Origin: a virus
IMG/VR virus record: IMGVR_UViG_3300034190_002269
Span: 1 to 25,775 of that record
Strand: one strand, 5' to 3'
DNA length: 25,775 bases
The translations under genes and the position numbers were made by a program. Below are positions 5,090-23,675 of the stretch, piece after piece. Below the pieces are notes generated by a model. It saw only the letters and a program-made list of their open reading frames with translations. It was not told where the DNA came from and did no database searches. Positions within the stretch are counted from its first letter, which is position 1. Each line of letters begins with the position of its first letter.

Positions 5090-5683
5090 TTACCTCATTG
5101 TAAAGTAATTACGTTGTAAAATGGTACTTGTTGAATAACTGTCGTGGAGAAGGTTGTGATCAGACGCTTCAGCGTGTTCTGACTTCAACGCTGCCATTGC
5201 GTTATCTTCGTCTTTCATGTTGAAAGATGAGACTGTAGGTGTACCAAGGAGCCGTTCTTGGAAAATCCTTGCGGCTCTGACTGTAATATACCTACGGGCT
5301 GTTTCAGGTATTTCATCAAAATCCAACCCTTGAACAATATCTAGGGTGACTGGTTCTGAAATAGTAAATGTATGTTTGATAACATCGTAAAGGAAACGTC
5401 CCCGTTGAACGTAGTTCTTATCAACATTCTGTCCTGTGGTATCTACACGGAGAGTGTTGAGAGGAAGTTGTATTCTATTTGATGTTGTAGGTGAAAATTC
5501 TCTATGAATATCAATGTTGAACCACCAGCCCATAGACTGAACTTCACGGTTCACTGAGGCTAGGATGGTTCGTGCTATGCCAGCATCAACAACATCAGGG
5601 TCATTGAGTGTCGTGACAGGGCTTTCACCGATATTCGTCAGCATCACATTGATTGCTTCAAGTTCTGTTGTTTGCTGTAGCAC
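5090..5683 (-). CDS. Tail tubular protein A, T7 gp11-like (gatekeeper/adaptor)
   Basis: The 197-aa protein matches the gp11 family in length (T7: 196 aa) and sequence: an N-terminal LEAINVMLTNIGESPVTTL, then REVQSMGWWFNIDIHREF around residues 46-63, then LPLNTLRVD. gp11 forms the dodecameric ring joining portal to nozzle. The gene is the first after the terminator that follows the capsid gene and sits directly before gp12, as in T7. Its mRNA must come from read-through of that terminator, because I see no phage promoter between capsid and gp11. Confidence 0.95.
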   Translation of the reverse strand: MLQQTTELEAINVMLTNIGESPVTTLNDPDVVDAGIARTILASVNREVQSMGWWFNIDIHREFSPTTSNRIQLPLNTLRVDTTGQNVDKNYVQRGRFLYDVIKHTFTISEPVTLDIVQGLDFDEIPETARRYITVRAARIFQERLLGTPTVSSFNMKDEDNAMAALKSEHAEASDHNLLHDSYSTSTILQRNYFTMR

Positions 5684-5694
5684 GGCTAACTCCT

Positions 5695-5732
5695 AAAAAG
5701 AAAAAAGGGAGAACCTAATTAAAGGCTCTCCC
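5695..5732 (-). terminator. Rho-independent terminator after the capsid gene (T7 T-phi position)
   Basis: Read on the minus strand, GGGAGAGCC and GGTTCTCCC pair around a short AT-rich loop (one mismatch), followed at once by TTTTTTC and more T. It lies 8 nt beyond the capsid stop and before gp11, exactly where T7 has T-phi after gene 10, so it should raise capsid mRNA relative to tail mRNA. Confidence 0.88.
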
Positions 5733-5740
5733 TAGGGGTA

Positions 5741-6700
5741 TTAAGCGGCAGTGATGCCGATCATGCACTCTGGGCGCAAGATACCATGTCCGACAGCCAT
5801 TTTACTGACCATCAATGTACCTTGGCGGCGAATATCATATTCGGCCTCAGAAGCAACATCCATCAACTGTACGCAGCCGATAGCTTGTGGTGTCAGGATC
5901 AAGGCGTTCAGCCCTGATGCGTCTACATCATACTTAGCTAGATTAGGAACACCTGTTCCTGTAGTTGTATGATTGATTGCCATGTTGTTAGACTTGACGA
6001 TCTCAATACCAGCTACACGCAGAACTTTACCATCTGAGTAATCACCGTTGCCACCACTGAAATCACGATTCAGGATTTTGTCATCCTGAACGAGTTTGTA
6101 GTAGATAGCTGGTGGTACGATAGCAAAGCGTCCTTCAGAAGCTACGTTCTTACCATCCAGCTTTTCAGCGGCTGTGTAGAACGCGGCTAGAAGAGCCGTT
6201 GATGTTGTTACACCACCAAGTGACACAGCTTCTGATGTATCCATATCAGCAAGTGTCTTTGTTGGCGGGGTCAACACATTAGTAGCGGCAAGTGACAGTA
6301 CATTACGGTCAAAGGTTTGAGCCAATGCTTGCCCCATCTGCTTTGAGTATTCACTGCGAACAGAGTAGTGGTTCTTGGCTTCGTCAATGTTACTGATGAA
6401 GCTATGTGAGATCAACAGGTCATCAATTGTGATGACAACTTCTGAATGATCCACACTTGAACCTGTGATTTCAGAACCCGCTGTGTGATACTCAGCATCG
6501 ATTTTACCGATTGCAGGGAACTGGTATGATTTACCGTTTGTGATCTTACGGGTACGAGTGCGCTCTTTCATTACTGTGTTTGCGTTGAAAGTGGTTAGAA
6601 CCTCACCGCTCCACAGTTTTAGAAACAGTTCATTATTGTCCGATCCAGCAACACCGTTAGGGGTGTTTAGACCAAGACGGGAAGGTACAGCATTAGCCAT
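5741..6700 (-). CDS. Major capsid protein, T7 gp10-like
   Basis: The 319-aa protein (T7 gp10A 345 aa) has the T7-type capsid beginning MANAVPSRLGLNTPNGV, followed by ELFLKLWSGEVLTTF and a TRKITNGKSYQFPAIGK segment near residue 55. It ends with VGHGILRPECMIGI. It forms the icosahedral shell. I chose the ATG at 6700 because GAGGAC lies about 10 nt upstream. The 22 codons the open frame adds upstream look like leader, not protein. A terminator follows immediately. No phage-type promoter is visible in the 134-nt leader, unlike T7, where gene 10 has its own strong promoter. Confidence 0.93.
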   Translation of the reverse strand: MANAVPSRLGLNTPNGVAGSDNNELFLKLWSGEVLTTFNANTVMKERTRTRKITNGKSYQFPAIGKIDAEYHTAGSEITGSSVDHSEVVITIDDLLISHSFISNIDEAKNHYSVRSEYSKQMGQALAQTFDRNVLSLAATNVLTPPTKTLADMDTSEAVSLGGVTTSTALLAAFYTAAEKLDGKNVASEGRFAIVPPAIYYKLVQDDKILNRDFSGGNGDYSDGKVLRVAGIEIVKSNNMAINHTTTGTGVPNLAKYDVDASGLNALILTPQAIGCVQLMDVASEAEYDIRRQGTLMVSKMAVGHGILRPECMIGITAA

Positions 6701-7086: not shown

Positions 7087-8799
7087 TTACTCACAACTTT
7101 TTTGTCCCGTGGAAGGATCAATAAAGCAAGCTTCAGCCTTTGGTTCTTCAATAGGATCATCAGTTTTAGCTTCGTTGAGTATCCCAAAACGCTTACCTGA
7201 AGCCCTAAAAGTTGTAATTCCCTTACAACCCGCTTCCCAAGCATCGTAATACAATTTCTTAAACTCTTCGTAAGTGACATCATCACCGACATTACAAGTT
7301 TTAGAGACCGCGCTATCCACGAACTTACTAGCGAGAGCGAGAACCGCGAGGTGTTCTTGTGCCGATATTTCGTTAGCAGTCCGTCCAGCCACACCGTTGG
7401 CATAAGCATAATCATTAACCCTTTCGGTTGTGGCTCCTGTGAAGTTCTGGATTGTCCGGTCATAGAACAGAGCAAATGGTGGTTCGATACCGCTGGATAC
7501 GTTATCCGCTGTTAGACTGATCGTCCCCGTTGGAGCGATGGATGTCAGGTGCGAATTACGGATACCCTGCTTCTTGATCTTCTCTTGTACCCAAGGTGAC
7601 AAAGTTTTCACGAATTGGCTGGCGAGATATTCTTCTGCCTTGTAGAGCGGGAACGAGCCTTTTTCCACGGCAAGATCACTTGAGGTGGCGTATGTGTAGT
7701 CACGCAGTGTTTCCATGACTTTCTTAGTGAACTCCATGAAACTTGGTGACGCATACGGGAACCCCATCATCTCTGCCGCATTAGCTAATCCTGTGACACC
7801 TAACCCCATACGGCGTTTGTTGTGGGCTTCGATCTCTTGTTCTTTAAGAGGGTAGATCGTACGGTCAACGATGTTATCCATAGCACGGGTAACGTGAGTG
7901 ATGTCGTGGGTGAACAAGCCGTAATCAAAAGCACCATCAACAACGTATTTTACTAGGTTAAATGATCCTAATAGACACGCTCCATTAGCTGGCAACGGTT
8001 GTTCGGCACAAGGATTTGTGGCATCCAGACGTTCACAATAATTAAGATTATTCATCTTGTTCATTGTGTCTAGAAAAACCACTCCGGGTTCAGCCCAATC
8101 GTAGGTTGAACGCATCACCTTTTCCCACAGCATAACTGGATCAACGTACTTATAGACGCGACCTTCAAATGTCAGGGGGAACTTAGTGCCATCACGGAGT
8201 GCAACCATGAAATCATCAGTGACACCGATTGAGATATTGAAACCTGTCAGTGACGTACTGTCGTTTTTAGCTGTGATAAATTCTTCGATACAAGGATGAT
8301 TTACGTTCAAAATTGCCATCTGCGCCCCTCTACGGTGACCGCTAGATGCGATGCACTGGCAGACAGCATCAAAGATACCCATAAAGCTAATAGGGCCGGA
8401 TGCCTTACTATCTAGGGTTTTAATAAGATCACCGCGAGGACGGATGTTGGAAAAGTTATAACCAATACCGCCGCCCATACGCATGGTGAAAGCAGCTTCC
8501 TTTGCGGCTTCCATGATTGAGGTCATGTTATCTTCAATAGTAGATGATACGAAACAATTGAAAGCTGTTGTCTGGCGGGACGATCCCGCAGCGTTTTGAA
8601 CTCTACCGGCTGGTAGGAACCGTTGATGCTTGATGGCATCCTTAAAGTTGACACGGTGGTTCTCATCGTCCTTGAGTGCGTGAGCAATACGGGCAACCTT
8701 CATGTTGAAAGTCTCTCCGTCTGCACGGTACTTAATTGCATCAATCTCATCTGAGAGTTGTGTCTTTGGCCCGTACTCGATTGTATTAGGTAGGTTCAT
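7087..8799 (-). CDS. nrdJ: Class II (B12-dependent) ribonucleotide reductase
   Basis: The 570-aa protein reduces ribonucleotides to deoxyribonucleotides for phage DNA synthesis. Visible family features are FNCFVSS (C82, one of the redox pair), the active-site NPCAEQPL (C264, E266), CLLGSFNL (C275, the second redox Cys) and a late GCKGITTFRASGKR. Two further Cys lie in the last 15 residues, suitable for re-reduction by thioredoxin. There is no N-terminal ATP-cone and no partner small-subunit gene nearby, which supports the single-chain adenosylcobalamin-dependent class over class I. The ATG at 8799 has GGAG 9 nt upstream. An ATG 27 nt earlier lacks this. It sits between the scaffold and capsid genes, an unusual place. 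Confidence 0.88.
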   Translation of the reverse strand: MNLPNTIEYGPKTQLSDEIDAIKYRADGETFNMKVARIAHALKDDENHRVNFKDAIKHQRFLPAGRVQNAAGSSRQTTAFNCFVSSTIEDNMTSIMEAAKEAAFTMRMGGGIGYNFSNIRPRGDLIKTLDSKASGPISFMGIFDAVCQCIASSGHRRGAQMAILNVNHPCIEEFITAKNDSTSLTGFNISIGVTDDFMVALRDGTKFPLTFEGRVYKYVDPVMLWEKVMRSTYDWAEPGVVFLDTMNKMNNLNYCERLDATNPCAEQPLPANGACLLGSFNLVKYVVDGAFDYGLFTHDITHVTRAMDNIVDRTIYPLKEQEIEAHNKRRMGLGVTGLANAAEMMGFPYASPSFMEFTKKVMETLRDYTYATSSDLAVEKGSFPLYKAEEYLASQFVKTLSPWVQEKIKKQGIRNSHLTSIAPTGTISLTADNVSSGIEPPFALFYDRTIQNFTGATTERVNDYAYANGVAGRTANEISAQEHLAVLALASKFVDSAVSKTCNVGDDVTYEEFKKLYYDAWEAGCKGITTFRASGKRFGILNEAKTDDPIEEPKAEACFIDPSTGQKSCE

Positions 8800-8813
8800 G
8801 TATATTGGCTCCT

Positions 8814-9065
8814 TTAGCATTTCCAACGGCGCATAGATGCTCTGGCACGTTCACCGTTTTTGGCACGTTTAGCGATCCCGCCCATTCTGGCGCAGAAGGA
8901 CTTTTTCCGTCCCTTGTCTGCTTTTGTTTTTGGTGTGGGGGCAGGGGCTTTTAGATTTGACCCTGTGGCTCTGTTGTATTTAGCGCGGCCTTTTGCGGTT
9001 AGCCCTGCGCCTTGACTTGTAGGTAATTTCTCACGCTTTTTTATGGAAAGACGTACATCTGTCAT
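8814..9065 (-). CDS. Small basic conserved phage protein (DUF6321-like)
   Basis: The 83-aa protein is strongly basic. Two blocks, LPTSQGAGLTAKGRAKYNR (residues 14-32) and KGRKKSFCARMGGIAKRA (51-68), plus a C-terminal ARASMRRWKC, recall a family of short proteins found in many tailed phages that I know as DUF6321. Its function is unknown. The charge suggests nucleic-acid binding. The ribosome site is weak (GAAAGAAC). The stop is directly followed by the AAGGAG that serves the reductase gene, so the two are probably co-translated. Confidence 0.72.
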   Translation of the reverse strand: MTDVRLSIKKREKLPTSQGAGLTAKGRAKYNRATGSNLKAPAPTPKTKADKGRKKSFCARMGGIAKRAKNGERARASMRRWKC

Positions 9066-19495: not shown

Positions 19496-21988
19496 TTAAG
19501 AGAAAAAGAAACTACTCTCCAAGACGTTATCGATATTGAAGTCACCTTTTGTTGGTAAGGCAGGGATATCCTCATCTTTCAGGACGAGCCTATTCTCCTC
19601 AAGAAATTCTTTAAGAGGATCATGCTTGGTGTAGATGTAGTGAAACGAATGTCTCAAGAGGACACTGAACACATCCATGTCAGACGCATGAACCGCAAAT
19701 GAATCATGGATCATACAAAATGACATCGGGCTAGAGACCTCTCCCGCATCGTAAGCATTAAGACAAGCAGAAATAGTAAGCTGTAGGTGAGCAGCATCTA
19801 GTGAATGAACAAAGTTTGGAGCTATAGAACTCCGCATTTTTCCACCATCCAGTGTTGCTTTGTTTTTGATGTAACTGATGTCACAACGCTTACCGTCTAA
19901 GAACGTCTTAACCCTCACAGGGCTGGTCTCAAGTCTTATCTGGCGCACAGGAAAACCCGCAGGGGTTGTCCATGTCATTGGACTTTGTGTACCTGATTTA
20001 ACAGTGAGTGATGCCATGTCAGTAAGCCACTTCATAGCTTCACGGGCTGCGACAACAACCTCATCGATTGATTGCCAAAGAACACGACTAATGAACGGTA
20101 CAAACTCCCCCATAGGCTTCCACGGCTCTTGATGCTGTTCAGCGTAGTGAGTGTTGGTGTAACGCATACACGCATGGAAAGTCGCTGAGTATGGCACAAC
20201 CATCACGCTCTTTTTACAAAGTTGCCTAGTGACCCCAGCCGCTAGTGCAGCTTCAGCCATAGCGATATCCTTTGGGTCACCGCCAGATACTATCAACTTT
20301 TCTAGCTTCTCGACTACACGATCAGCTACTTGCTGGTAGATATCCTGACGTTCTGTGAGGTTATCAAGGTTTGTAGCCTTTGAACCGACAGGGTCTAAAA
20401 GCATAGCTGAATAGTGTTGGATACCAGAACAGGTTGCATCAACTGGCACTGGCATATGAGACATGAATACCTCGCCATTTGCTTCAGCCAACAGGACACC
20501 ATGTAGTTCTTTACAAGCGCGGGCAAATGCGAACGGCTCCCCTGCGTCCATCCACCGGATGTCAGTCATAGGGTTCTCAGCCACAGACATGATCAGTTCG
20601 TTGTTGTCCATACACCAAGCGACACGCTCATCGAGCGTCAACTTATCCATACCATAGGCGTTGGCACAGGCGATCATCAACCAACGCATCCCTGCGCTGT
20701 CTGAGGTCACTGGTTTACCCACAGAATACTCGCAGATGTGCTTGATGTAATCTGTCGATTGCGGGTTCAGTACCACTGGTTTTGGGTACAGCCGCCCACG
20801 GCTATCCATGAAATGCGGATAGAAATGCTCTGGATACTCAGCCATTTTATCAGCGATCTGGAAAGCTTGAAGGGCTGCGATCCGCTTCGACACGCTGCGC
20901 CGGTTGTGATCATGCACCAGATAACAGTCACGGCGGTATTCATTAGACACGTTCTTGTCAGTCTTGGCGGCTGCTGGCATTGGCGGGATTTCACGCGGTG
21001 ATGCGTCAGGTAGACCACAACGGTCACCGTGATTCGATGCGTAAGCCCATTTGACCAGACGCAGCATATCATCATTGACCCGCCAACCTGTTCTCTGGAT
21101 AGCGTTAACCGCTGCGAGGACATCGGTCAGGTCTGAGTTCTGTAGTTCCTCAAGATAAGCTCTGTTGGTATCTTTAGCGAGAGGGTAGGGCGTGACGTTT
21201 GAGGTCAGGTATCCACCACCAAACAAGTTATCTTGTGTCCAATCTTTTGGCGGGCAAACCATCGGTAGATACATCGAATAGTTAGCCTCATTGTTATCCA
21301 TCCTCGCCTTCACCACCTCAATAAATTCTGGGGTAGGGGTGATGACCTTGCGTTGCTGTTGTGTTTTGACACCGACATCATCGATCTTCAGGATGCCTGT
21401 TCTCTCGACAAATATATCCAGCAACTTGATGCCTAGGTGTAACCGGCTGGTCTGATCCCAGCCTTCTTGTTGCCATTCCAATCGCAGCTTAGACATAGTT
21501 CTTTGGATCAAAGCTTTGCGGCGATCCCGATTAAGATCACGCTCATCGAAATCCTTCATTAGCTTTCGGATCAGCTTCTTGTTGTTAGCTTCAAAATAAC
21601 GGATCGCTAGTTCATCATGTAATCGTCCAGCGATATCGTAGGCAACGTGTTGCACGGATGTAGCTTTACTGTCAGACCCATGCCGTAAAGGAACCTTGTT
21701 GATGATTGCTTTGGTTGTGATAAATGCGAATGTCTCAGGCTCCATGCAAGTCAGCATTTTGACTGCCCGATGTTTAGCACCGGCTGTCCCATTTGATGAC
21801 AATTCGATGAACGCATTGATCCCATCGAGAACCGCTTGTTCGACATGAAACTGCACGGCTCTGCCGGTTGTTGTCTCAGCAAAATCACCTCTCTTCTCTG
21901 CATTATCATGTAGTCTATAGAAACGAGAGATACTTAGAGTTCTCATATCTTTCTCAAGGTCTCTTTGAGCTTGTATCATATCAGTCAT
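19496..21988 (-). CDS. Single-subunit phage RNA polymerase, T7 gp1-like
   Basis: The 830-aa enzyme (T7: 883 aa) transcribes the middle and late genes from the phage promoters in this window. Conserved parts are DSRGRLYP near residue 395, motif A VDATCSGIQHYSAML (D517), motif B RQLCKKSVMVVPYSA (K592, Y600), the IAPNFVHSLDAAH block, and motif C IHDSFAVH (D762). It ends VLESSFFFS, like the ILESDFAFA end of T7 RNAP. The ATG at 21988 has AAGGAG 5 nt upstream. The 38 extra codons upstream cover the promoter and are leader. A phage promoter 26 nt upstream implies autocatalytic expression once some polymerase exists. Confidence 0.97.
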   Translation of the reverse strand: MTDMIQAQRDLEKDMRTLSISRFYRLHDNAEKRGDFAETTTGRAVQFHVEQAVLDGINAFIELSSNGTAGAKHRAVKMLTCMEPETFAFITTKAIINKVPLRHGSDSKATSVQHVAYDIAGRLHDELAIRYFEANNKKLIRKLMKDFDERDLNRDRRKALIQRTMSKLRLEWQQEGWDQTSRLHLGIKLLDIFVERTGILKIDDVGVKTQQQRKVITPTPEFIEVVKARMDNNEANYSMYLPMVCPPKDWTQDNLFGGGYLTSNVTPYPLAKDTNRAYLEELQNSDLTDVLAAVNAIQRTGWRVNDDMLRLVKWAYASNHGDRCGLPDASPREIPPMPAAAKTDKNVSNEYRRDCYLVHDHNRRSVSKRIAALQAFQIADKMAEYPEHFYPHFMDSRGRLYPKPVVLNPQSTDYIKHICEYSVGKPVTSDSAGMRWLMIACANAYGMDKLTLDERVAWCMDNNELIMSVAENPMTDIRWMDAGEPFAFARACKELHGVLLAEANGEVFMSHMPVPVDATCSGIQHYSAMLLDPVGSKATNLDNLTERQDIYQQVADRVVEKLEKLIVSGGDPKDIAMAEAALAAGVTRQLCKKSVMVVPYSATFHACMRYTNTHYAEQHQEPWKPMGEFVPFISRVLWQSIDEVVVAAREAMKWLTDMASLTVKSGTQSPMTWTTPAGFPVRQIRLETSPVRVKTFLDGKRCDISYIKNKATLDGGKMRSSIAPNFVHSLDAAHLQLTISACLNAYDAGEVSSPMSFCMIHDSFAVHASDMDVFSVLLRHSFHYIYTKHDPLKEFLEENRLVLKDEDIPALPTKGDFNIDNVLESSFFFS

Positions 21989-22030: not shown

Positions 22031-22083
22031 TGATTTTGGGACAAAACCAAGTGCGTATCCGTTACGATATAGTAAATGTATGG

Positions 22084-22117
22084 AAAAAGAAAAAACCCAC
22101 ACCCATATTTGAGTGTG
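22084..22117 (-). terminator. Rho-independent terminator between attachment core and RNA polymerase gene
   Basis: On the minus strand CACACTC pairs with GGGTGTG (one G-T pair) around a 6-nt loop, followed by GGTTTTTTCTTTTT. It would stop transcripts coming from int, and in an integrated phage those coming from the host tRNA promoter, before they reach the RNA polymerase gene. Confidence 0.78.
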
Positions 22118-22164
22118 AGCTTATAACAGCGGTTAGATTACGCTAATGAAATCAATACGAGATA

Positions 22165-22204
22165 GATTTTAAGTCCGTTATGTCTACCATTCCATCACGC
22201 CCGC
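22165..22204 (-). other. Attachment-site core (attP): 5' half of a tRNA-Leu(UAA) gene
   Basis: Read on the minus strand from 22204, the sequence is GCGGGCG (acceptor), TG, a D-arm ATGGAATGGTAGACAT, then ACGGA and the anticodon loop CTTAAAA with anticodon TAA. Two bases after the loop it stops resembling a tRNA: the 3' anticodon stem, variable arm, T arm (no GTTCRA) and acceptor end are absent. This is therefore a fragment, not a functional tRNA gene. Cyanophage P-SSP7 carries a 42-bp match to part of a host tRNA-Leu gene beside its integrase. The same layout here, with phage genes on both sides, identifies an attP core. Confidence 0.85.
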
Positions 22205-22278
22205 ATTTATTTGTCACTCTGCATTAGAGCGATTTAGTCTTAGTCTCTGGGACAAATTGTATTTTGTACCATTTGTCC

Positions 22279-23310
22279 CTAATTTGTCCCACCATTTTGT
22301 CCCATAGGTACAACATTAGTTGAACCGTCTGAAACCGTTGGTGACACTTGATCTAGTACATCCGCACCAACAAAAAGGTCTGTTGGGGCTAGGTGAGCAT
22401 AGATCATTGTGGTTTGAATGGTTGTATGCCCCATCCAATCCTTAACACGCCGGATATCCACACCACCTTGAACCAGTCTTGAAGCGCAAGTGTGGCGGCA
22501 AGTGTGTATCGTGATATCAGGTAAATTACAAGCCGCTTTAGCTCTGTCAAAAGCCGCCGCATAAGTCTGGTAAGGGATAGGGAAGGGTTGCGCTGGGCTG
22601 ACCGTCCTACGGCGTCTGAGGGCTTGCTGGGCGGCTGTTGATAGTGGGACAGTCCTTGGTGTTGAAGTCTTAGTATCCCAGAAGGTAACTGTCTTATCTT
22701 TGACATCAACCCATCTAAGCTTGAGTAACTCAGATATCCTTGCGCCAGTGTATATCAGGGTGATCAGTAAATCAGCGTAATCCTCACGCCCGACATGGTG
22801 AAAGAACTTGATCAACCCTTGTTCCTGTTGAGGCTCAAGGAATACCACGCGACCTTTGCGTTGCTTCTGGTAAGCCATCGATGGCGAGGGTGACTGTATG
22901 TGACCACAGGTGACCGCGTGTGCCATGATACGGTTGAAGGTAGCCGCGTAGTTGTTGATCGTACTCCCAGCCCGCCCAGCGTCCAGCAATGAGGTTCTGA
23001 ACTTTACAGCGTGAAGGTTGGTGACATCAGCCAACGGTGTGTCCAGCCCTATGAACTTAGCGAGGGCTTTGGACTGCCTGACAAGGTTGAGCATATTAGG
23101 GCTATCAGGCCATAGGTATGGAACGCTCTTCTCAAAAAAAGAACCCACCAACTCTTTGTGAGATGATGGGTCATAGTTTTCTAGCTCTGTGCGTTTCGTT
23201 TGTTCCCAAGCCACCGCTTGGTCTTCATCATCAAAGAGCTTCTTGTAACTCTTCCCTGAAACCATTACGCGGGCGATGAATTTACCCCGCGATTTATCGT
23301 AACTAGCCAT
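22279..23310 (-). CDS. int: Tyrosine site-specific integrase
   Basis: The 343-aa recombinase has an N-terminal AP2-like arm-binding segment (SRGKFIARVMVSGKSYKKLF, residues 7-26), a core-binding helical domain (about 55-150) and the catalytic domain with R191 (TGARISELL), K214 (DTKTSTPRTVPL), H269 and R272 (IHTCRHTCASRL), H295 (DWMGH) and Y304 (MIYAHL). It should insert the phage into a host tRNA-Leu gene through the core 75 nt downstream. The ATG at 23310 has GAGGAG overlapping the last codons of the MarR-like gene, so both are one operon. The final codons (PMGQNGGTN) are written by the GGGACAAA repeats. Confidence 0.96.
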   Translation of the reverse strand: MASYDKSRGKFIARVMVSGKSYKKLFDDEDQAVAWEQTKRTELENYDPSSHKELVGSFFEKSVPYLWPDSPNMLNLVRQSKALAKFIGLDTPLADVTNLHAVKFRTSLLDAGRAGSTINNYAATFNRIMAHAVTCGHIQSPSPSMAYQKQRKGRVVFLEPQQEQGLIKFFHHVGREDYADLLITLIYTGARISELLKLRWVDVKDKTVTFWDTKTSTPRTVPLSTAAQQALRRRRTVSPAQPFPIPYQTYAAAFDRAKAACNLPDITIHTCRHTCASRLVQGGVDIRRVKDWMGHTTIQTTMIYAHLAPTDLFVGADVLDQVSPTVSDGSTNVVPMGQNGGTN

Positions 23311-23317
23311 AGCGATT

Positions 23318-23650
23318 TTACTCCTCTAAGATTTCGTTGATTGTGTCGTACAGTACATGAGCTTGCGGTTTTAAAGTTATAAGGCGCAAGCGGTGATCCA
23401 TCGGGTCAAGATTGGACTCGATGAAATCCTTGCCTGAAACGTCAGGCTTATAGCGTTTTGACCAGTAAGCCACGTTGCGGCTGGCGGCTGCGTTGGACAG
23501 CCCAAGCATTTTTTCCAAGTCTTTTTGTCGTTCGTGTTTTGACGCTAATAGAATTGTAAGCGCACATGAAACTGACATATCTTTGTCGATTGTCTGGAAT
23601 GTACGCAGCAGTTTGATTGCTTTATCAACTGACTTGCTATTGGTAGACAT
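23318..23650 (-). CDS. MarR-like winged-helix DNA-binding protein
   Basis: The 110-aa protein has an HTH (RQKDLEKMLGLSNAAASRNV, about residues 41-60) followed by a wing like that of MarR proteins (LDPMDHRLRLITLKPQAHVL, about 82-101). It is shorter than typical MarR (about 140 aa) and lacks much of the dimerisation helices. The ATG at 23650 has GGAGG 7 nt upstream, which decides it over an ATG 21 nt earlier. It ends 7 nt before int. It could be the lysogeny repressor, an excision factor or a regulator of int. I cannot choose from sequence. Confidence 0.8.
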   Translation of the reverse strand: MSTNSKSVDKAIKLLRTFQTIDKDMSVSCALTILLASKHERQKDLEKMLGLSNAAASRNVAYWSKRYKPDVSGKDFIESNLDPMDHRLRLITLKPQAHVLYDTINEILEE

Positions 23651-23675
23651 AGTATTTCCTCCCTCACTCATTAAC

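Follow-up and report, generated by a model that had tools for sequence, protein, structure and literature searches.

A 40-bp segment of the phage DNA analysed here, identical to the first 40 bases of the tRNA-Leu(UAA) gene of SAR116 bacteria, is probably the core of a phage attachment site (attP), at which the phage integrase would recombine with the host tRNA-Leu(UAA) gene and the tRNA would be rebuilt from a 5' half supplied by the phage. The segment lies in a 25,775-bp fragment from which ~15 kb of the genome is missing (hereafter the window, meaning the whole stretch), and on the minus strand (22204-22165) it reads GCGGGCGTGATGGAATGGTAGACATAACGGACTTAAAATC. Identity starts exactly at base 1 of the tRNA and ends two bases beyond the anticodon loop (T39 and C40), after which the host reads CGTGGGCC and the phage reads TATCTCG, an extent that agrees with the earlier note on this DNA; alignment with complete tRNA-Leu(UAA) genes revealed no further identity beyond either edge. 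The core thus spans the 5' strand of the acceptor stem, the D arm, the 5' strand of the anticodon stem, the loop CTTAAAA with the anticodon TAA at core positions 34-36, and two bases of the 3' anticodon strand. The match to the first 40 nt of a tRNA-Leu(taa) gene called by ARAGORN is 40/40 in 19 of 21 genome stretches, the tRNA-Leu gene being truncated or at a contig end in the other two. ARAGORN calls no complete tRNA in the window, and since the source is a linear IMG/VR virus record without a host contig, the half-tRNA is flanked by phage sequence on both sides.

With identity limited to bases 1-40, the site departs from the canonical 3'-half attP. That tRNA-targeting elements usually carry the 3' end, as had been claimed, is borne out by the Islander collection, where 3760 of 3,919 islands have a 3' fragment and 159 a 5' fragment (PMC4383910), and a 5'-half core is rare overall. 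Archaeal pTN3-like elements also use 5' halves, with the restored tRNA expressed from the integrase promoter and hence from element DNA, and such use is called rare in bacteria (PMC8371274). These archaeal elements resemble the window in the 5' half of the tRNA gene, but differ in that integration splits their integrase gene.

The exact 40-mer also proved to be the handle on the host that the earlier note had expected. Among 84,980 species genomes it is present in 21, of which 20 are SAR116 (Puniceispirillales) and one is Lichenicoccus, and of 385 alphaproteobacterial genomes drawn evenly from the class two contain it, both SAR116; these counts exclude a chance match. A search of the SAR116 order (the order of genome G003) recovered it in 21 of 136 genomes, namely 20 of the 21 earlier matches and one more. 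The GC content of the window (46%) falls within the SAR116 range of 44-54%, and that of Lichenicoccus is 69%. Because 20 of the 21 exact matches are SAR116, the sequence strongly indicates that ocean SAR116 bacteria are the host, and 40 bases can in this way name the host of an uncultured virus. In one SAR116 MAG (L013:591-630, minus strand) the tRNA-Leu(UAA) gene has the normal sequence only as far as the T arm, which may reflect another insertion, a deletion or a misassembly.

The core is situated between genes for a tyrosine integrase and a T7-like RNA polymerase (Table 1). Reading leftward, the order is regulator, integrase, 74 nt, core, hairpin with T-run and RNA polymerase, with the half-tRNA, integrase and polymerase gene all in the same direction on the minus strand. 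With a phage RNA polymerase gene and an adjoining integrase gene, the window is that of a T7-like (Autographiviridae-type) phage with an integrase. The catalytic residues R191, K214, R272, H295 and Y304 of the integrase are conserved (integrase alignment A1), and the polymerase is 38-40% identical (tblastn) to those of Roseobacter phages CRP-118, CRP-403 and CRP-804. A Pfam search with the small regulator gave no match; the protein is 31% identical to a CRP-804 'MarR family' protein, and the regulators of relatives are MarR-type. The octamer GGGACAAA is present in seven copies in the window, against 0.9 expected window-wide, and five of the seven are clustered in 266 bp around the core; such repeats look like arm-type integrase sites.

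Table 1. Positions of features in and around the attachment region of the window, and of the prophage in genome G445
Feature	Position	Strand	Basis or remark
attP core, bases 1-40 of tRNA-Leu(UAA)	22165..22204	(-)	40/40 identity to SAR116 tRNA-Leu(taa) genes
Anticodon loop CTTAAAA, presumed 7-bp crossover (overlap) region	22167..22173	(-)	tRNA positions 32-38
Tyrosine integrase, 343 aa	22279..23310	(-)	PF00589 4.7e-25; phrog_1 5.3e-53
Small transcriptional regulator, upstream of int	23318..23671	(-)	phrog_9665 2.4e-17
T7-like single-subunit RNA polymerase, downstream of core	19496..21988	(-)	PF00940 2.8e-89
Intrinsic terminator between core and RNA polymerase gene	22093..22122	(-)	13-bp stem, 4-nt loop, TTTCTTTTTC tail
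Gap of 74 nt, int stop to tRNA base 1	22205..22278	(-)	sequence
TCTAAT, weak -10-like hexamer (candidate)	22223..22228	(-)	18 nt before tRNA base 1, read from sequence
GGGACAAA, putative arm-type integrase site, RNA polymerase side	22038..22045	(+)	
GGGACAAA x4, putative arm-type integrase sites, int side	22249-22256; 22272-22279; 22283-22290; 22296-22303	(+); (-); (-); (-)	
G445 integrated prophage	G445:C1:77627-118320 (L184-L187)		

In the proposed mechanism, the integrase would cross over in the anticodon loop of the SAR116 tRNA-Leu(UAA) gene, a position presumed from known attB sites in anticodon loops (PMC8371274, PMC4383910) and from a 15-bp anticodon arm found at both ends of a prophage described below. 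One junction would leave the promoter and 5' half of the host gene as an orphan running into the phage terminator, and a strong host tRNA promoter would thereby be kept from driving the phage RNA polymerase gene. At the other junction, the phage 5' half and the host 3' half would together form an intact tRNA-Leu(UAA) whose transcription would come from phage DNA, with the 74-nt gap as its new upstream region. When the 80 upstream bases of the phage and the core were joined in silico to host 3' halves, a tRNA-Leu(taa) was called in all seven cases (six SAR116 loci and Lichenicoccus); no tRNA was called when the same bases were followed by the phage's own downstream DNA.

The suggestion that the phage would have to supply the 5' half to the restored tRNA is supported, but the accompanying idea of a dedicated promoter fared less well, as a promoter scan of the gap between int and core found no sigma-70 site on the minus strand. 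The candidate hexamer TCTAAT has no matching -35 element and is absent from the scan output. Signals upstream of several SAR116 tRNA-Leu genes (TTGCAT ... CTATCA, ~19 nt before base 1) are not present in the phage. The lack of a convincing minus-strand promoter in the gap is a point against the attP reading. There is no terminator within the gap, and the restored tRNA would most likely be transcribed by read-through of the regulator-int operon, a source at least as likely as a dedicated promoter, or possibly from a weak promoter in the gap.

The earlier note had named P-SSP7 as the precedent for a tRNA-Leu core beside int, and the precedent holds. In T7-like cyanophages the attP corresponds to the first half of tRNA-Leu. 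PCR has shown that P-SSP7 and S-TIP37 integrate into tRNA-Leu, a step for which S-TIP37 requires both int and attP, without stable lysogens (PMC8776855). The cyanophages P-SSP7, P-SSP2/3, S-TIP37, S-CBP1/2/3 and SS120-1 share with the window a tyrosine integrase followed on the same strand by the first ~39-40 nt of tRNA-Leu, with an intrinsic terminator after the half in nearly all and the RNA polymerase gene next in most. In all of them the half follows int at a distance of 81-119 nt, on the same strand, and identity begins at base 1; the window, with 40/40 identity 74 nt after int, conforms to the P-SSP7/S-TIP37 type of attP match (~39 bp, downstream of int). The full order of int, first half of tRNA-Leu, terminator and RNA polymerase found in the window is also that of P-SSP7, P-SSP2, S-TIP37, S-CBP2 and S-SRP01. 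The first three elements are common to SS120-1, S-CBP3 and S-TIP28, the polymerase gene being beyond the stretch read in SS120-1 and S-CBP3 and upstream of int in S-TIP28. The window differs from the cyanophages in that its integrase falls outside the cyanophage clade and its core matches SAR116 rather than cyanobacteria, and the -10 boxes of P-SSP7 and P-SSP2 (TATAAT, ~20 nt before base 1) are clearer than that of the window. As such sites have been published for T7-like cyanophages, the half-tRNA site of the window is no new type; the arrangement is already known in cyanophages and is apparently the first such for SAR116. An incomplete literature search found no published T7-like SAR116 phage with an integrase (PMC11092137), and this abundant ocean clade is apparently added to the hosts of integrating T7-like phages.

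The cyanophages also raise the possibility that the site is a functional attP for rare, transient integration during lytic growth, with no stable lysogeny, in which the recombination step would be the same as in the proposed mechanism and the purpose different. This reading, a serious contender that nevertheless falls somewhat short of an even chance, draws on the integration of P-SSP7 and S-TIP37, with the same arrangement, without a stable lysogen being found (PMC8776855), and on the presence of any T7-like RNA polymerase in only one of 136 SAR116 genomes, that one belonging to a different phage. Against this, a T7-like prophage of the same gene order is stably integrated in genome G445, and published descriptions call LUZ100, Pasto and HTVC019P temperate or integrating (PMC10134795).

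The pattern of a core followed by a terminator is new here and is not a published criterion for such sites. In a strict search of the 120 nt after the core, with dinucleotide shuffles as control, a terminator was found in the window and in eight of nine distinct cyanophages, with at most 1.3% of shuffles scoring positive (0.7% for the window); in the ninth, S-CBP1, the T-run of the hairpin is weaker. The region 22085-22164 of the window folds at -20.2 kcal/mol (z -4.1). Between int and core, there is no terminator in the window or in any of the cyanophages. Such placement is suggestive of a role in shielding the polymerase gene against transcription from the host tRNA promoter; equally, the terminator may simply end the int operon, because LUZ100 has one after int with no half-tRNA there. 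The notion that every half-tRNA site has a terminator was rejected, since one is lacking in HTVC134P, L119, L118, L131 and L134. The half-tRNA contig L130 has a terminator after the core, and for contigs with a whole tRNA the strict criterion identified one in only 2 of 17.

An identical 40-mer lies within a whole tRNA gene of the T4-like contig L003, and acquisition of the core from SAR116 is for this reason unproven by sequence alone. A 34-mer scan matched 29 viral contigs, and all those readable through carry whole tRNA genes, which makes the window the only half with this sequence among the viral contigs. The L003 match could be taken to mean that the segment is a decayed phage tRNA gene, that is, a complete tRNA-Leu minus its 3' half and with no role in integration, as complete tRNA-Leu genes are carried by T4-like and some T7-like phages and many relatives have a whole tRNA at this position. 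This reading is most unlikely: the 40 bases contain zero mismatches, the break is at the anticodon loop like that of all cyanophage cores and several other contigs, there are flanking arm-like repeats, and cyanophage homologues recombine at such a site (PMC8776855).

When the integrase sequence was used alone, scans of viral and genome contigs detected no relative, and relatives were obtained instead with an alignment, which yielded 80 viral contigs. The integrases nearest to that of the window are only 34-38% identical, which counts against the attP reading. Counting those with an RNA polymerase gene downstream, 22 of the 80 have a complete tRNA between int and the polymerase gene, mostly tRNA-Leu(UAA) but also Leu(CAA), Leu(UAG) and Cys(GCA). 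In 20 of the 22, a second, isolated copy of the anticodon loop follows within 20 nt of the tRNA, the exceptions being L103 (91 nt) and L126 (~145 nt), and the copy agrees with the anticodon of the accompanying tRNA: CTTAAAA(TC), CTCAAAATC, TTTAGGTT or TTGCAAATCC. Some of these contigs are near-copies, so that independent cases are fewer than 22. A per-locus shuffle test of the loop repeat is weak for many contigs (p from <=0.005 to >0.5), and the argument consequently rests on position and anticodon match rather than on p. The arrangement of int, complete tRNA and loop copy is found in L104, L105, L107, L109, L110, L113, L120, L129, L135, L138, L139, L152, L160, L168 and L172, among others. 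Judged by sequence layout, these T7-like contigs have the arrangement of tRNA-dependent lysogeny, a system known for actinobacteriophages with only Lj965 mentioned outside them (PMC10865867). HTVC011P (L053 ~5590-5800) carries a complete tRNA-Leu(UAG)-like gene after int and a second loop copy, CTGGTCTTAGGAACTAC, before the polymerase gene, and is a candidate for another such case.

One such layout was found in the integrated state. Genome G445 (3.33 Mb, one contig; alphaproteobacterial) contains a 40.6-kb T7-like prophage with the gene order of the window. At its left end, the host 5' half GCCCCTGTGGCGGAATTGGTAGACGCGGCAGACTCAAAATCTG is followed by phage DNA, an intrinsic terminator and the RNA polymerase gene; at its right end, int is followed by a complete tRNA-Leu(CAA) and then, within ten bases, by CAGACTCAAAATCTG and the host 3' half. 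The 15-bp anticodon arm is shared by both ends, and the joined host flanks give a proper tRNA-Leu(CAA). The host tRNA gene is thus broken and a whole replacement is carried on the prophage, a layout called tRNA-dependent lysogeny (PMC10865867), to which the sequence of the G445 prophage appears to conform. The tRNA-Leu(UAA) gene of G445 is also split (G445:C1:922061-923368; L198:261-1568), into an orphan 5' half and an orphan 3' half with core GGGACTTAAAA; the insert of ~1.2 kb has a complete tRNA-Leu(UAA), one 257-aa ORF and no integrase.

These relatives permit a different reading of the window, in which the anticodon loop is a short core, the host tRNA gene is destroyed, a complete phage tRNA-Leu lies in the missing ~15 kb and the 5' half is a leftover. 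The 22 contigs with related integrases and the G445 prophage, which splits its target and carries a whole tRNA, lend it some support. It is very unlikely, since the window has no tRNA gene, the whole tRNA of those phages lies between int and the polymerase gene, in the position of the window's half and not elsewhere, and the 5' half, complete from base 1, can be paired with SAR116 3' halves, as a leftover need not. The mycobacteriophage Fionnbharth (PMC10865867) is like the window in having a tyrosine integrase and a host tRNA gene as target, and its whole tRNA and short core are shared with the window's integrase relatives; in the window itself, a genome fragment, there is no whole tRNA, and in place of a short core of ~10 bp with no rebuilding, the 40-bp core rebuilds tRNA-Leu in silico.

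The preferred reading, a core from which the host tRNA is rebuilt, may be related to the whole-tRNA arrangement. A 5' half only, as in the window, is found in L118, L119, L122, L130, L131 and L171 (alignment score 19.5-31.5; shuffled maximum 13) and, judged by eye, in L134; a 3' half alone is found only in L174. Mapped on the integrase tree, the half-tRNA character requires four or more changes over branches with good support; the window is placed outside the cyanophage clade, and its own position is poorly supported. One tentative interpretation, held with rather less than even confidence, is that half-tRNA and whole-tRNA sites are two states of one system in temperate T7-like phages. In the whole-tRNA state (int, complete tRNA, second loop copy, RNA polymerase), the host tRNA would be destroyed on integration. 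Recombination between the directly repeated loop copies, possibly by the integrase, would remove the 3' half and create the arrangement of the window, and the layouts are consistent with the half form having arisen from the whole form by one such deletion. Whichever the state, the lysogen would rely on phage transcription for an essential leucine tRNA. The relatives bear on two questions raised by PMC10865867, namely the existence of tRNA-dependent lysogeny beyond actinobacteriophages and its relation to tRNA-rebuilding systems; with the G445 prophage and the anticodon-matched loop copies, both can be tested directly in proteobacteria.

Roseobacter phages CRP-118, CRP-403 and CRP-804, the closest cultured relatives (int 34%, RNA polymerase 38-40%), share the order regulator, int and polymerase but, unlike the window, have no recognisable tRNA half between int and polymerase, which is also a point against the attP reading. 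Pelagiphage HTVC134P has the 5' half of tRNA-Arg(UCU) (L057 1827-1868), and in pelagiphages HTVC021P and HTVC131P the gap between int and polymerase (L054, L055) holds a tRNA-Cys 5' half on the strand opposite int. In the case of Desulfovibrio phage ProddE (L058 2200-2600), a tRNA 3' half lies on the opposite strand between int and a CI-like repressor.

The earlier note had also proposed a search for integrated relatives with the same core as attL and attR repeats, and this came up empty: in 136 SAR116 genomes there is no integrated copy of the phage or a near relative at tRNA-Leu(UAA), and no integrated relative was found carrying the exact window core, a result that weighs against the attP reading. 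Neither of the outcomes it regarded as contrary, namely the lack of a near-identical tRNA-Leu gene or integrated relatives with another core, was encountered. Integrase relatives within SAR116 genomes are distant and mostly background recombinases. The one T7-like RNA polymerase in the 136 genomes belongs to a divergent T7-like prophage in the complete genome G096 (C1 ~410000-424500), which was rejected as an integrated relative since it adjoins coaD, not a tRNA, and its polymerase is 23% identical. The ribonucleotide reductase at the G096 locus is 67% identical to that of the window, where the gene for the large chain (7087-8826; PF02867) lies between the portal-type head-tail connector and capsid-region genes, apart from the replication genes.
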